Shown here: piece after piece, positions 11,090 through 16,604 of the stretch
Layout: each line of letters starts with the position of its first letter
How positions within the stretch are numbered: position 1 is the first letter of the stretch
Virus record (IMG/VR): IMGVR_UViG_3300032291_000843
Span: 1-22,302 of that record
Reading direction: 5' to 3' (one strand)
Length of the DNA stretch: 22,302 bases
From: a virus
Notes under the pieces: generated by a model
Told to the model about the DNA's origin: nothing
What the model saw: only the letters and a program-made list of their open reading frames with translations
The model's database searches: none
Program-made: the position numbers and the translations under genes

Positions 11090-11122
11090 TTGTTTCCTAT
11101 CTAGTAAGTCCGCCTAGATTTG

Positions 11123-11195
11123 CTGGCCCACTAGGATTCGAACCTAGGACCTAGAAGTTAACAGCTTCCCGCTCTGCCTGCTGAGCTATGGGCCA
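11123..11195 (-). tRNA. tRNA-Asn (GTT)
   Basis: 73 nt, full cloverleaf. Acceptor TGGCCCA/TGGGCCA, D-arm GCTC/GAGC, anticodon loop CTGTTAA (anticodon GTT), T-arm CTAGG-TTCGAAT-CCTAG, discriminator G. CCA is not fully encoded (GCA follows). It has a strong promoter upstream (11223-11252). Confidence 0.95.
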
Positions 11196-11710: not shown

Positions 11711-11937
11711 TATTTATCCTTTCTTAATGGGATTGTAATTAACCAAATAATTGTTGTTGCTAATACAGCAACTCCTACAATATCTCTAGCTGATCCCGTC
11801 AATGTTAACCATGCGATAAAGAAGCCAAGGAGGGTGAATGCCTGTGCAATTAATTCCATTCCTGCATCTTTAAACCATTTAATTAATCCGTTTAGGGCTT
11901 TACCTATTAGATTAAAGGCTTTTTTGATTATCTTCAT
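11710..11937 (-). CDS. Small two-span membrane protein
   Basis: 75 residues. An amphipathic basic N-terminus (MKIIKKAFNLIGKALNGLIK) precedes two hydrophobic segments (about 30-47 and 53-70) and a basic RKDK tail. It shares ATGA overlap with the PA14 gene and a 1-nt overlap with the holin candidate, with a very good GAGGAGG SD. It may be a second holin or antiholin; the evidence is topology and context only. Confidence 0.7.
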   Translation of the reverse strand: MKIIKKAFNLIGKALNGLIKWFKDAGMELIAQAFTLLGFFIAWLTLTGSARDIVGVAVLATTIIWLITIPLRKDK

Positions 11938-14009
11938 TTGTTCCTCCTCATGACTGCCCCTGCAATTTGTGATGCAATGACCACTGGGACAATTACTTCT
12001 TGTGCTTTTTCTCTCTGATCATCTGTCATGTCCATACCTAATTCAGAGAAATTAGATAGGAGTTCTATTGGGTCCACCGCAAAAACTGCTCCAAGTGGGT
12101 CTGATAAAAATGCTTCCGTTTGTACTTCTGTTACTGCATCTGCTAATGTAAATGGCATTGGGGTATCTCCTGCATCCCCCGCTCTTTCTGAGAACTCAAC
12201 AAATGCTGAAGCAAGCGCTGGGTTAGATTTCATCTGCTCAGCAATCTGTGCAACTTCTGAAGCCTTGATACCAAGATCACTTGCTACCTCTGCTTTTGCT
12301 TCTTGTGTCAATGCTCTAAGTGTTTGGCTAACTGCCGTAATTTGTTCAGAAGATAGTTTAACTAACTTATTATCCTTGCTTGTAAGGTTAGCAATAACTC
12401 CAGATAAATCTTCTGATGTACCAGTTCCTTTTTCAGGAATTAGGGCTGCTAGTACTTCATCTTTAATTTCTGCATCTGGGGTAGTCCAAGGTTTCTCTTC
12501 TGGCTCTGGCCCAGGTGCTGGAGCAGGATCTTCAGTTGGTTCTGGTGTTGGTTCAGGAGTAGGTGGTTCCTCTGGTGTAGGTTCAGGTGTAGGCTCGTCT
12601 GTAGGGCCTACTGTAGGCTCTGGTGTTGGTGGTTCCTCTGCAGTTGGTTCTGGGCTTGGCTCTGGCGTAGGTGGTTCCTCCGCAGTTGGCTCAGGACTTG
12701 GTTCTGGTGTTGGTGGTTCCTCCGCAGTTGGCTCAGGACTTGGTTCTGGTGTTGGTTGATTTGCTGCAGCATTTGCTGTTGCTTGTGCAATAGCAGCATT
12801 AAGTTCTCTTTGAGACTGCTCGTCATAGTAACGCCATGCGTTATCAATGGCACTATTAACATTATTAATTGCTTGCTCATATGCGCTGATAGCATTATTT
12901 TTATTCTGTAATGCTGTAGCAACATTTAAAACTGAATTATTATACTCAGTTGTTTTATTATTTAGTGTTTGATTGTATCCATTAAGTGTTGAGACTGCTT
13001 GGTTATAAACATTTAGTTTATCATTGTATACATCTTGGGCTGAGTTTTTTGCAGCAAGTGCATTATTATACTCATTGGTTTGTTCTTGAGTTGCTCCAGA
13101 TCCAGAAGAAAATGTATTTAAATTACAGCTAAAGTTTTGTCCCCATACTCTTGGATCTCCAGCATAGTCACAACCTGCTCCAGTCCAACCACCAGGAATG
13201 CCCCATCCAAGATGGTACGAGCCTGGCCCCCCACCGTTGTACCACCAAATCTCTACATCAAAAACCTTGTCTGTCGTTACATCATATACAGGAGAGTAAT
13301 CACTCCAAGTTGTTCCTTGTTCCCGCCAATTATTAATGGCAAGCTCTCCATCAATATACATTCTAAACCCATCATCTGTATATCCTGCAAAATATGCCTG
13401 TGTAAACCAAGATGGAACTGTTATCTGTCCAGTAAATTTAACAATAAAGTTGCTATACCGATTACCACAAACTGGTAGTTGCATATAATTTGAATTCCAT
13501 GTGCCACTGCATAGCAATTGATCTGTGGCTGCTTGCCCATCAACTCTAATTAGACTATAAACATCGTATTGTAATCCTGCTCCGCCAGCACTGTTTAATG
13601 CTTGTTGGGCTGTTTGTAGATTAATATTGGCTACGCCAAGTGCATCGTAGGCATCATTCTTATTAGTTAAAGCAGTGGCCAACTCCATTGTTTGTTCATC
13701 TACTGCTGATTGGGCTAAGCCTTTTTCTTCAAGTGCCGTGGATTCTGCGTCAAGAGAATTATCATATAAGTCTGAGGTTTGTGTCTGGCTTTCTTTTGCA
13801 GATACTGCAATAGCATATCTATCTTCTGCCTCTTCAATCAAAGATATAAATTCATCTTTGTAGCCTAGGTCGTCTATACTATTATTAAGCTCTTCAATTT
13901 CTTGAGCTGCTAAACTTAGTGGATCATCGCTATAGGCGGGGGACATAAAAAGCCATCCAAATGCAAGCATTATGGACGCTGTTATTCTAAATAACTTTTC
14001 CCTTTTCAA
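11934..14009 (-). CDS. Secreted PA14-domain protein with Pro/Glu repeats
   Basis: 691 residues, TTG start. Residues 1-27 are a signal peptide. Residues 31-138 form a coiled coil. Residues 147-275 resemble a PA14/GLEYA carbohydrate-binding domain (YFAGYTDDGFRMYIDG and VEIWWYNGGGPGSYHLGW are typical strands). Residues 305-412 are a second coiled coil, 419-505 are PTPEPSPEP-type repeats like wall-spanning linkers, and 506-691 form a helical C-domain ending in a short hydrophobic stretch and RRNK. This layout fits a protein exported and held at the cell surface, not a tail fibre, although a fibre-like role cannot be excluded. An AGGAG SD lies 7 nt before the TTG, partly inside a hairpin. The next in-frame ATG would remove the signal peptide. 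Confidence 0.85.
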   Translation of the reverse strand: MKREKLFRITASIMLAFGWLFMSPAYSDDPLSLAAQEIEELNNSIDDLGYKDEFISLIEEAEDRYAIAVSAKESQTQTSDLYDNSLDAESTALEEKGLAQSAVDEQTMELATALTNKNDAYDALGVANINLQTAQQALNSAGGAGLQYDVYSLIRVDGQAATDQLLCSGTWNSNYMQLPVCGNRYSNFIVKFTGQITVPSWFTQAYFAGYTDDGFRMYIDGELAINNWREQGTTWSDYSPVYDVTTDKVFDVEIWWYNGGGPGSYHLGWGIPGGWTGAGCDYAGDPRVWGQNFSCNLNTFSSGSGATQEQTNEYNNALAAKNSAQDVYNDKLNVYNQAVSTLNGYNQTLNNKTTEYNNSVLNVATALQNKNNAISAYEQAINNVNSAIDNAWRYYDEQSQRELNAAIAQATANAAANQPTPEPSPEPTAEEPPTPEPSPEPTAEEPPTPEPSPEPTAEEPPTPEPTVGPTDEPTPEPTPEEPPTPEPTPEPTEDPAPAPGPEPEEKPWTTPDAEIKDEVLAALIPEKGTGTSEDLSGVIANLTSKDNKLVKLSSEQITAVSQTLRALTQEAKAEVASDLGIKASEVAQIAEQMKSNPALASAFVEFSERAGDAGDTPMPFTLADAVTEVQTEAFLSDPLGAVFAVDPIELLSNFSELGMDMTDDQREKAQEVIVPVVIASQIAGAVMRRNK
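12630..12755 (-). repeat. Three 42-bp tandem repeats (PTPEPSPEPTAEEP)
   Basis: Three in-frame 14-residue units, nearly identical in DNA, followed by more degenerate PEPT units to about 12495. Such repeats expand and contract by slippage and make a stiff extended linker in the PA14 protein. Confidence 0.85.
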
Positions 14010-14074: not shown

Positions 14075-14260
14075 TTAGCTATTATCTGTCTTGTAAAAAC
14101 CAGTACCCTTGAACTGTATACCAAATGGAGTAAAGTGTCTTGTCATATTAGATTCACATTCTACGCAACTATAACCTGGATCTTCATCCCTAATTGATCT
14201 ATGTACCGACATTGTTGCATGTGCATCATCATATGAGCATTTGTATTCGTATACTGGCAT
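14075..14260 (-). CDS. FmdB-like zinc-ribbon protein
   Basis: 61 residues, beginning MPVYEYKCSYDDAHATMSVH, the FmdB/CxxC_CxxC_SSSS-type opening, then CVECESNMTRHFTPFGIQFK and GTGFYKTD at the end. Cellular members have CxxC in both knuckles; here the first knuckle has only Cys8 with Asp and His nearby, so metal binding may be altered. Phage copies are common and of unknown role. It has an AAGGA SD. The preceding 111-nt gap holds a structured RNA segment. Confidence 0.85.
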   Translation of the reverse strand: MPVYEYKCSYDDAHATMSVHRSIRDEDPGYSCVECESNMTRHFTPFGIQFKGTGFYKTDNS

Positions 14261-14303
14261 TACCTATTCCTTAATTATAATGAGCAGTTTAGCGACATAC
14301 TCA

Positions 14304-14361
14304 GGTCCATCCAGCGGGTAGCGGCCCGCTATCTGCGACTCCCCGATGAAGGGGTGCAGAT
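14304..14361 (-). ncRNA. GC-rich double-hairpin RNA element
   Basis: Two hairpins stand back to back with no spacer. The first is ATCTGC-a-CCCC-ttcatc-GGGG-agtc-GCAGAT (14331-14361) and the second AGCGGG-ccgcta-CCCGCT (14313-14330), followed by GGATGGACC. It is strikingly GC-rich in an AT-rich genome. A minus-strand TATAAT (14366-14371) would start transcription at the first stem. It could be a small RNA, a leader element of the fmdB-like gene, or a stabilising 3' end of the hsp20 mRNA. No known RNA family is recognised. Confidence 0.55.
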
Positions 14362-14365
14362 TTCT

Positions 14366-14395
14366 ATTATACTATTTCTTTGTTCTTTTTGTCTT
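14366..14395 (-). promoter_or_regulatory. Promoter candidate in front of the double hairpin
   Basis: Minus-strand AAGACA (14390-14395), an 18-nt spacer and a perfect TATAAT (14366-14371), beginning immediately after the TAG stop of hsp20. The predicted start falls at the first base pairs of the hairpin. Confidence 0.5.
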
Positions 14396-14869
14396 TACTG
14401 TAGAATCTTCTTCAAGATCTCTAAGATCTCCGAAGCTATCCTCTGCATCAAAGTCATGAATGTCGAACTTGACTGGTCTTTCACTTTCTGGAATAAACTT
14501 AGTTAGTCCTACCATTAAGATTCCGTTTAAAATAACTACGGAATTAACCTTTACATATTCTGCAAGAGAAAATGTTTTAACAAATGAACGTGCTCCGATA
14601 CCCTTGTAAAGATATTCTTTACTTGAGTCTTCGTGAGAAGCGCCTTTAATTGTTAGTACATTCTTATCTTGCTCTACTTCAATATCTTCCTTGTTGAATC
14701 CCGCCAAAGCAAGTTCAATTACATACATATCTTCTGAGCCTTTAACCTTAGAGATATTATGAGGTGGATAGTTTGAAGTGTTTCTGTTTATGTTTTGTAG
14801 ATCTTTAATTTGGCGATCAAAACCAATAAAAAATGGATCATTAAAAAAATCCAGAGTTGTTGTTACCAT
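14372..14869 (-). CDS. hsp20: Small heat-shock protein (Hsp20/alpha-crystallin)
   Basis: 165 residues. The alpha-crystallin domain spans about 36-135: YVIELALAGFNKEDIEVEQD, then NVLTIKG, ARSFVKTFSLAEYVKV, and the final strand LNGILMVGLTKFIPE in place of the usual GVL/GIL-LPK motif. A charged tail (EDSTVKTKRTKK) follows. Hsp20 proteins hold unfolded proteins in the cytoplasm; cyanophages and other phages carry them, presumably for virion assembly. It has an AAAGGGGAA SD and a strong promoter (TAGACA-N17-TGCTATAAT region) with an inverted repeat at the predicted start site. Confidence 0.93.
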   Translation of the reverse strand: MVTTTLDFFNDPFFIGFDRQIKDLQNINRNTSNYPPHNISKVKGSEDMYVIELALAGFNKEDIEVEQDKNVLTIKGASHEDSSKEYLYKGIGARSFVKTFSLAEYVKVNSVVILNGILMVGLTKFIPESERPVKFDIHDFDAEDSFGDLRDLEEDSTVKTKRTKK

Positions 14870-15968: not shown

Positions 15969-15982
15969 TTTTTTTATTTTTG

Positions 15983-16053
15983 CTTTGGGTGAAGGAGTCG
16001 GACCTTCGTTTACAGGCTCGGAACCTGGTGTACTACCATTATACGAACCCAAA
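15983..16053 (-). tRNA. tRNA-Arg-like (CCG), divergent
   Basis: 71 nt. Acceptor TTTGGGT/ACCCAAA, D-stem GTAT/GTAC, anticodon stem CCAGG/CCTGT with a C-U mismatch at its base, loop TTCCGAG (anticodon CCG), T-stem GAAGG/CCTTC. The T-loop is TCCGACT instead of the usual TTCGAnT, so U55 is C, and base 38 is G. The variable loop is only 4 nt. It could be an unusual but functional tRNA or a decaying copy; CGG is expected to be rare in this AT-rich genome. Confidence 0.65.
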
Positions 16054-16057
16054 ATAG

Positions 16058-16128
16058 AGCGGATGATCAGAATCGAACTGACCCCTTCTGCTTGGAAGGC
16101 AGAGGCACTACCAATATGCAACATCCGC
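16058..16128 (-). tRNA. tRNA-Gly (TCC)
   Basis: 71 nt, complete cloverleaf. Acceptor GCGGATG/CATCCGC, D-stem GCAT/GTGC, anticodon stem TCTGC/GCAGA with loop CTTCCAA (TCC), T-loop TTCGATT, discriminator T. CCA is not encoded. It sits 4 nt from the tRNA on either side. Confidence 0.93.
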
Positions 16129-16132
16129 GTTG

Positions 16133-16204
16133 CGCCCTTAAAGAGATTCGAACTCCTGGCCTAACGGGTAGAAACCGTCCGCTCTTCCGCTGAGCTATAA
16201 GGGC
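16133..16204 (-). tRNA. tRNA-Arg (TCT)
   Basis: 72 nt, complete cloverleaf. Acceptor GCCCTTA/TAAGGGC, D-stem GCTC/GAGC, anticodon stem GACGG/CCGTT with loop TTTCTAC (TCT), T-arm AGGAG-TTCGAAT-CTCTT. It reads AGA, a codon that AT-rich phages use heavily but GC-rich actinobacterial hosts often use little. It begins 2 nt after the stop of the gene at 16207. Confidence 0.93.
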
Positions 16205-16206
16205 AT

Positions 16207-16518
16207 TTAATCGTTTGGAATATCTTCCTCATGCATATCAACTTCTACCAGCCCTAGCTCTTTAGCCATTTCATGGCCCTCTTCGGACATTTCTATTATT
16301 GCTTCAAGGTTATCATCGTATGTAACATTTATCAAGCCCGCCTCATATAGCTGGACTAATGATCTATCAACATGTTCTTGATGTGCCTCCCACAACTCTG
16401 GGGCAATATCTTTTGCCTTTTCTGTAATTTGAAAGATAAACTCTCCGCTCTCATCCATTCCAGATAACTCTACGGCACCCATTTCTAGGTACATTGCTAA
16501 TTTATCATCATCATTCAT
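16207..16518 (-). CDS. Conserved-type protein, winged-helix-like
   Basis: 103 residues, acidic and helical: PELWEAHQEHVDRSLVQLYE, GLINVTYDDNLEAIIEMSEE, then GHEMAKELGLVEVD. The helix-helix-wing rhythm of residues 40-90 resembles a small winged-helix domain, but without a basic recognition helix. I recall such proteins from related phages with no function. It lies between two tRNA segments, and its GGAG SD begins just after the 3' end of the CAT tRNA. Confidence 0.7.
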   Translation of the reverse strand: MNDDDKLAMYLEMGAVELSGMDESGEFIFQITEKAKDIAPELWEAHQEHVDRSLVQLYEAGLINVTYDDNLEAIIEMSEEGHEMAKELGLVEVDMHEEDIPND

Positions 16519-16530
16519 ATGATCTCCTTG

Positions 16531-16604
16531 TGCAACAAGTAGGACTTGAACCTACGATTACCGAATTATGAGTTCGGGGCTTTAACCAACTAAGCTATTG
16601 TTGC
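16531..16604 (-). tRNA. tRNA with CAT anticodon (Met or Ile2)
   Basis: 74 nt, complete cloverleaf. Acceptor GCAACAA/TTGTTGC, D-stem GCTT/AAGC, anticodon stem CCGAA/TTCGG with loop CTCATAA (CAT), T-arm GTAGG-TTCAAGT-CCTAC, discriminator A. It may be elongator Met or, if C34 is modified by TilS, Ile for AUA codons; sequence alone does not settle this. The first pair G-C and the absence of three G-C pairs in the anticodon stem argue against initiator. Confidence 0.9.

Follow-up and report, generated by a model that had tools for sequence, protein, structure and literature searches.

What kind of element separates the hsp20 gene from its FmdB-like neighbour in the virus record IMGVR_UViG_3300032291_000843? 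The window, that is, the whole stretch of 22,302 nt analysed here, codes on its minus strand for an Hsp20/alpha-crystallin protein of 165 amino acids (14372-14869, PF00011; stop codon at 14374-14372) and, downstream of it, for a zinc-ribbon protein of 61 amino acids (14075-14260) whose FmdB-like match, PF09723, lies under the curated cut-off. An initial annotation had flagged the interval 14304-14371 between the two genes as a phage element, a GC-rich double hairpin with its own promoter in an AT-rich genome. Its phage origin was borne out, and the terminase of the window phage shows 62-66% identity to its counterparts in Streptomyces phages, for example Gilson and BillNye. On the minus strand, the order of features is the hsp20 stop codon, TATAAT, hairpin 1 (HP1), hairpin 2 (HP2), GGAU, GACCUGAGUAUGUCGCUAAACUGCUCA (14307-14281), a short spacer with the Shine-Dalgarno-like AAGGA (14261-14280) and the ATG of the FmdB-like gene. 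The flagged interval covers both hairpins, but it missed the most conserved part of the locus, a pseudoknot at 14307-14281.

The -10 hexamer TATAAT (14366-14371, minus strand) lies directly 3' of the hsp20 stop codon and is found in the same place in relatives. Upstream of it, within the 3' end of hsp20, a weak -35-like hexamer, AAGACA (14390-14395, minus strand), was assigned by consensus match only; the pair has 10 of 12 consensus letters and a spacer of 18 nt, with the -35 being poor. HP1 (14331-14361, minus strand) begins about 4-5 nt after TATAAT and HP2 occupies 14313-14330 on the same strand, both being assigned by folding and from relatives. In HP2, six perfect pairs (AGCGGG/CCCGCU) enclose the loop CCGCUA, whose consensus is [CU][CU]GYUA. 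The perfect arms that had been claimed for both hairpins are therefore a property of HP2, whereas in HP1 six outer pairs (AUCUGC/GCAGAU) and four inner pairs (CCCC/GGGG, with the loop uucauc) flank an asymmetric A/AGUC internal loop. The two hairpins abut without a spacer in the window copy, as had been noted, and are 0-4 nt apart among relatives. Their GC content of 65% versus 38% for the window, matched by only 0.2% of 49-nt windows, and their conservation in relatives agree with the description of a GC-rich double hairpin. The fold of the 59-nt double hairpin (-25.2 kcal/mol, z -2.2, 5 of 200 shuffles as good) is moderately unusual and that of the entire 105-nt leader has a z of -0.9; thermodynamic stability was thus discarded as sole support for structure, being unimpressive in the window. 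We consider the hairpins real because they are conserved among relatives.

An exact 21-nt hairpin pattern was matched in 42 viral contigs, with flanking genes that vary on both sides. TATAAT and the leader are kept in dozens of relatives despite different flanking genes, in keeping with the proposal of an own promoter followed by a structured leader. The conserved unit is TATAAT-HP1-HP2-GGAU-pseudoknot; its upstream neighbours comprise two hsp20 types and other genes, and downstream it is mostly followed by FmdB, and also by a nuclease-like gene or unrelated starts. The initial annotation had named compensatory changes in homologues as the test of its hairpins. These are few in the hairpins, with one double change among 22 distinct relatives for the nearly invariant HP1 and three standard pair types (G-C, U-A and A-U) at pair 2-17 of the HP2 stem, and overwhelming in the adjacent pseudoknot. 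In other actinophage loci, different hairpins occupy the slot between TATAAT and the pseudoknot. Since the unit stays intact while its neighbours change and since other hairpins can take the same slot, the double hairpin together with TATAAT forms a promoter-leader cassette conserved in freshwater actinophages, and the hairpins are its less conserved part.

A GC hairpin followed by a T-run is absent from the site on either strand, and the hairpins are not an intrinsic terminator because no T-run follows them, as had been concluded for a simple hsp20 terminator. The suggestion of a discrete small RNA found no support, as the leader is not followed by a terminator and an ORF begins 20 nt past the pseudoknot. 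Two coding explanations were also rejected. A leader peptide (ATG frame MDLSMSLNCSL) overlaps the window knot, but by eye its start and stop are lost in relatives; readthrough of the hsp20 stop codon would find an open in-frame extension of 36 codons here, yet other phages conserve the RNA pairing and not the frame.

When the leader was compared by blastn, it matched unrelated phages through its 3' part only, and this led to the H-type pseudoknot of 27 nt at 14281-14307 (minus strand), whose homologous copies carry compensatory changes in both stems. It is made up of stem 1, GAC/GUC (14307-14305 with 14296-14294), a first loop of a single C (14304), stem 2, UGAGUA/UGCUCA (14303-14298 with 14286-14281), a single U between the 5' strand of stem 2 and the 3' strand of stem 1 (14297), and a third loop, GCUAAAC (14293-14287); both stems were assigned by covariation. 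Stem 1 of the window copy has three pairs only. The consensus of the element, (n)nnAC-C-URRRYA-N-GUnn(n)-n..UAAAC-UGYYYA, was derived from Lactobacillus, Roseobacter and crAss-like phage sequences and then from those recovered by pattern scans. In its common form, stem 1 is nnAC/GUnn, followed by a single C, stem 2 is UGAGYA/UGCUCA, one nucleotide separates the strands, and the third loop ends in UAAAC.

The pairing was assayed in several ways, the first three of which are unbiased. With the usual base and its partner forbidden at position 2 of stem 2 (not G, partner not C), A-U was found in 81 of the 95 matches listed, and with the same restriction at position 3 (not A, partner not U) G-C was found in 80 of the 81 matches listed. 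When the 5' strand of stem 1 was left unconstrained, pairs 1 to 4 formed in 88, 88, 87 and 62 of 88 distinct copies, with null values of 42/88 for pair 3 and 34/88 for pair 4. A descriptor that leaves loop 1 and the identity of the stem letters free recovered 361 distinct copies in 3.8 Mb, versus 7 in Markov-shuffled sequence of equal size; loop 1 was C in 360 of these 361 copies, and in 72/73 among the copies matching no search pattern. In alignment A4, which contains descriptor-selected rows and so leans towards structure, 97.8% of the cells pair, compared to 21-37% in slid versions, and 72 double-change cells were counted versus 19 in shuffles. Because of these descriptor-selected rows, the first two tests (forbidden bases and free stem 1 strand) weigh more. 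These results show that the strongly covarying H-type pseudoknot, with both of its stems, is real.

The element is very widespread, with hundreds of unrelated phages carrying it, and virus-associated, and it is rare in cellular genomes. When 2.9 million viral contigs were scanned for exact patterns, very many copies were obtained, the matches listed for three of the scans being lower bounds, while the strict pattern was found in 12 stretches of about 85,000 prokaryote genomes (257 Gb). Its carriers infect Actinobacteria, Firmicutes, cyanobacteria, roseobacters and the hosts of crAss-like phages; one of them is a microvirus. Matches in named phages, for part of which the pairing was inspected, include Lactobacillus phig1e, KC5a, Lj771 and JNU_P7, Staphylococcus StB12, Streptococcus Javan271, Lactococcus GE1 and the thermophilic D6E; Corynebacterium phi673/674, Roseobacter SIO1 and CRP-6, Lentibacter ICBM1-3 and a Paracoccus phage; and Synechococcus S-CRM01, S-H35 and S-EIV1, Microcystis Ma-LMM01 and the crAss-like cr7_1/cr124_1. 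In one Vibrio and one E. coli phage, imperfect, near-perfect copies were found. That of Vibrio phage D456 (locus L457, 301-325), in which C-A stands at the first position of stem 2, lies antisense to annotated small hypothetical genes and is present in 28 near-identical phages. In the circular genome of Sigmofec virus UA08Rod_4626 (Microviridae, 6-kb ssDNA; L470, 5803-5826), a BLAST match to the knot lies between the peptidase and major capsid genes. Among the strict-pattern copies, one is on a Methanobrevibacter contig (L450, 376-402) and others are on candidate-phyla contigs, including those of Saccharibacteria (L445, L449 and L451); these archaeal and candidate-phyla copies are possibly proviruses. 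A plasmid search returned only short matches and matches of 89% identity that fall within an integrase gene of Serratia plasmids.

Some contigs carry 5-8 copies each, while the reversed-pattern control gave 0. Groups of 3-7 knots spread over several kb, with one per intergenic gap, were observed in L192 (14 kb of a 38.7-kb contig), L189, L131, L158 and L278; in both L192 and L189, one of the knots lies behind a DUF932 gene, and an ORF of 139-140 amino acids that belongs to no known family is bracketed by knots. In the crAss-like cr7_1 (L126, 1441-1527), two tandem knots are about 30 nt apart, the first one being a variant in which GAG/CUC forms stem 1 and UAGCA/UGCUA forms stem 2.

In agreement with the initial annotation, to which no known RNA family had come to mind, Rfam 15 at the gathering score gave no match in the window or in ten other loci, and in the 251-nt window region no match was obtained up to an E-value of 10, abiF (RF03085) and GP20-b included. 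With relaxed E-values, applied to eight and five named loci, the sole relevant match was a sub-threshold one to GP20-b (RF03003) in Lactobacillus KC5a, full-length and exactly at the knot, with 20.5 bits (E 9.9e-4 for that genome) against a threshold of 36.2. RF03002, considered as GP20-a, is actually lysM-Prevotella. GP20-b reportedly came from a 2017 comparative study of 224 candidate RNAs. It is a cis-regulatory phage RNA before the GP20/scaffold gene in Firmicutes, and some pseudoknot copies likewise precede scaffold genes. The KC5a copy (L462, 1500-1568) bridges both, with a canonical knot, a GP20-b-like downstream hairpin and then the scaffold gene. The Rfam model line of GP20-b marks hairpins only, and the H-type layout was read by eye in one member (L475), with a stem 1 of 4, a loop 1 of 1, a stem 2 of 6, 1 nt, and a loop 3 of about 7 with UAA. 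Genuine Clostridia members have by eye the same general layout and another sequence. However, GP20-b differs from the pseudoknot element in sequence core, hosts and gene contexts, and it has a hairpin after the knot, whereas the window element has two hairpins before it; nor is there a scaffold gene downstream in the window, where the flanks are hsp20 and FmdB. Since only the KC5a copy matches, below threshold, and the Clostridia members differ in sequence, we do not treat the element as a member of GP20-b but as a new, much wider form within the known phage leader pseudoknots. Open-licence papers, searched with the core sequence included, gave no description of it.

The position of the element was analysed by simple ORF calling in the 331 copies with enough flank. 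Most of them (278/331) lie outside called ORFs, and they are co-directional with the upstream gene in 253 of 277 cases (24 opposite) and with the downstream gene in 252 of 275 (23 opposite). Stem 1 most often starts 4-9 nt past the stop codon, and a second maximum at 50-75 nt is consistent with the hairpin cassette. Hexamers resembling a -10 box occur about three times as often as expected in the stretch 5-14 nt upstream of stem 1 (43 in 10 offsets against about 13), as in loci L148, L227 and L245, and in this minority of copies the box would place the knot at or near the 5' end of the transcript. In cobaviruses the pseudoknot is found between ribonucleotide reductase and glutaredoxin, and in Lactobacillus, D6E (Geobacillus-type) and Streptococcus phages directly before scaffold genes. 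Among the upstream proteins (144 distinct contexts, A1) there were 19 Hsp20, a count slightly inflated by a few loci from the initial Hsp20 search, 7 DUF932, 4 ribonucleotide reductases and one Abi_2, and among 146 downstream proteins 9 FmdB, 7 glutaredoxins, 4 PhoH and 3 scaffold proteins. Hsp20 directly upstream of knots spans actinophages and other phages. No unifying function was found among these 144 upstream and 146 downstream proteins.

Because a compact, conserved knot lies between genes without a common function, is biased towards viruses and is placed sometimes at 5' ends and sometimes right after stop codons, the element seems to act on the mRNA itself. The reading that we prefer, with a confidence that stays somewhat short of even, is that of a cis-acting element of mRNA punctuation or stability that could serve as a nuclease roadblock or 5'-end shield. 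The locus in the window would then be a cis-acting leader composed of promoter, two hairpins, mini-pseudoknot and the start of the FmdB-like gene. The compact knot, with a stem 1 of 3-5 pairs, an invariant C crossing stem 2 and an A-rich loop 3, might form a mechanically stable mark that stops or slows 5'-end-dependent or 5'->3' enzymes (RNase J, RNase E) on behalf of the downstream gene and that possibly blocks 3'->5' exonucleases on behalf of the upstream one. Segments of polycistronic phage mRNAs could in this way decay independently, and scaffold, capsid, gp32, glutaredoxin and other genes could stay expressed; in the window phage, the two hairpins may cap the 5' end of the leader that carries the knot. 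A precedent is the gene 32 mRNA of T4, the most stable message of that phage, which RNase E cleaves at -71, immediately 5' of the pseudoknot at -67 (PMC3014915). In this proposed function only, the element would resemble the xrRNAs, compact virus-encoded pseudoknotted folds that block exonucleases, which differ in being larger and in coming from RNA viruses of eukaryotes. A mechanism through RNase J alone is unlikely, since near-perfect copies occur in Vibrio and E. coli phages, whose hosts, to our knowledge, lack RNase J. A role at the 3' end of the upstream gene is equally possible because in intergenic regions longer than 200 nt the knot is closer to the upstream stop codon in 18 of 22 cases. 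Two further observations speak against the preferred reading, namely the apparent intrinsic terminator (hairpin and T-run, by eye) between the knot and the scaffold gene of Staphylococcus StB12, and the stem 1 of only three pairs in the window. The diversity of the neighbours argues against regulation of a single gene, yet it is no proof of a role in stability.

An unlikely, although still arguable, alternative is a translational operator, in which a phage or host protein binds the knot, spreads over the ribosome-binding region and represses or activates the downstream gene, as is the case for gp32. The gene 32 pseudoknots of T2, T4 and RB69 are likewise of the H-type, with a short loop 1 and a stem 2 of 6-7 bp in a phage leader upstream of the start codon, and their loop sizes are, we assume, those of the element described here. 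Across the family, moreover, the approximately 8 nt after stem 2 are G-poor (2-12% G), the start codon most often lies 17-30 nt beyond stem 2, and in cyanophage S-CRM01 the pseudoknot precedes gp32 itself. However, we know of no sequence core common to both pseudoknots, and the gene 32 site is a single, dedicated autoregulatory one, while the element is multi-copy and found beside unrelated genes. The downstream gene in the window is FmdB-like and not one for a ssDNA-binding protein, and the neighbours in the family are mixed, with none of the downstream proteins counted above exceeding 9 of 146. Since phages with unrelated proteomes carry the element, with 5-8 copies on some contigs, a single autoregulated gene does not account for it, and any conserved binder would need to come from the host.

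Two further explanations are improbable to a similar degree. The knot might be a signal for the transcription machinery, letting RNA polymerase through phage operons by put-like antitermination, pausing or control of termination; it lies near promoters in some actinophages, and the hairpin and T-run of StB12 would fit. Nevertheless, terminators within 250 nt downstream of knots are not clearly enriched (8/302 versus 6/361 at random positions), and repeat copies spaced by about 1 kb do not resemble put sites. Protection of the 3' end of the upstream gene would agree with the peak at 4-9 nt after stop codons, with the location closer to the stop codon in long intergenic regions, with Hsp20 being upstream in 19/144 contexts, and with two cyanophage ORFs that are bracketed by knots and for which PHROG and Pfam scans detected DUF932 only, in the largest ORF. 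Copies right behind a -10 box, however, would be the 5' end of the downstream message, and the cassette form remains constant while upstream genes change. Even less probable is a small-molecule or ion riboswitch of the pseudoknot type: a small, sequence-conserved leader pseudoknot with invariant loop letters (C, UAAAC) would suit it, but the downstream genes share no metabolic function, without a dominant family among the 146, and the element, unlike known riboswitches, is rare in cellular genomes.

Pseudoknots 5-8 nt downstream often stimulate readthrough or frameshifting, and the stop-to-stem peak is at 4-9 nt; the very small H-type fold with C in loop 1 and an A-rich third loop is presumably also that of the BWYV/luteovirus frameshift knots, which differ in stems and location. 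Such a stimulator is nonetheless hardly credible, since the frame entering the knot varies with the stop-to-stem distance, most copies lie outside reading frames (278/331), and copies behind promoters have no upstream stop codon in the transcript. A decoy of the pseudoknotted RNA antitoxin of a type III toxin-antitoxin system or of AbiF, or a free small RNA, is just as implausible, for although ToxI is a 36-nt interlocked pseudoknot, AbiF uses a 36-37-nt RNA motif (PMC12373285) and one upstream gene is Abi_2, no Rfam family including abiF matched, the copies are single ones inside operons without a general link to toxin genes, and the window has a single knot copy, no adjacent toxin gene and no RF03085 match.

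Returning to an element of mRNA stability, we put forward, as a doubtful extension, that one minimal pseudoknot of 27-34 nt, common to viruses of many bacterial phyla, may act as roadblock or punctuation, be a counterpart of the xrRNAs and set the relative stability of message parts, with the GP20-b and gene 32 knots being specialised branches or look-alikes. Whatever its function, this structured RNA, so common in phages, almost perfectly covarying and with a core that does not vary, is without a family in Rfam 15. Should it serve stability or punctuation, it would account for the way in which phages of many hosts adjust expression within long operons (capsid and scaffold genes included) and would provide a portable 30-nt part for the control of mRNA decay, and leader knots like that of gene 32 become testable as a general phenomenon and not as a speciality of T4.

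Elsewhere on the minus strand of the window there are five tRNA genes, Arg-CCG, Gly-TCC, Arg-TCT and Met-CAT at 15982-16604 and Asn-GTT set apart at 11122-11195, and a gene at 11934-14009 codes for a protein of 691 amino acids that contains a PA14 domain and a tandem repeat rich in proline and glutamate.
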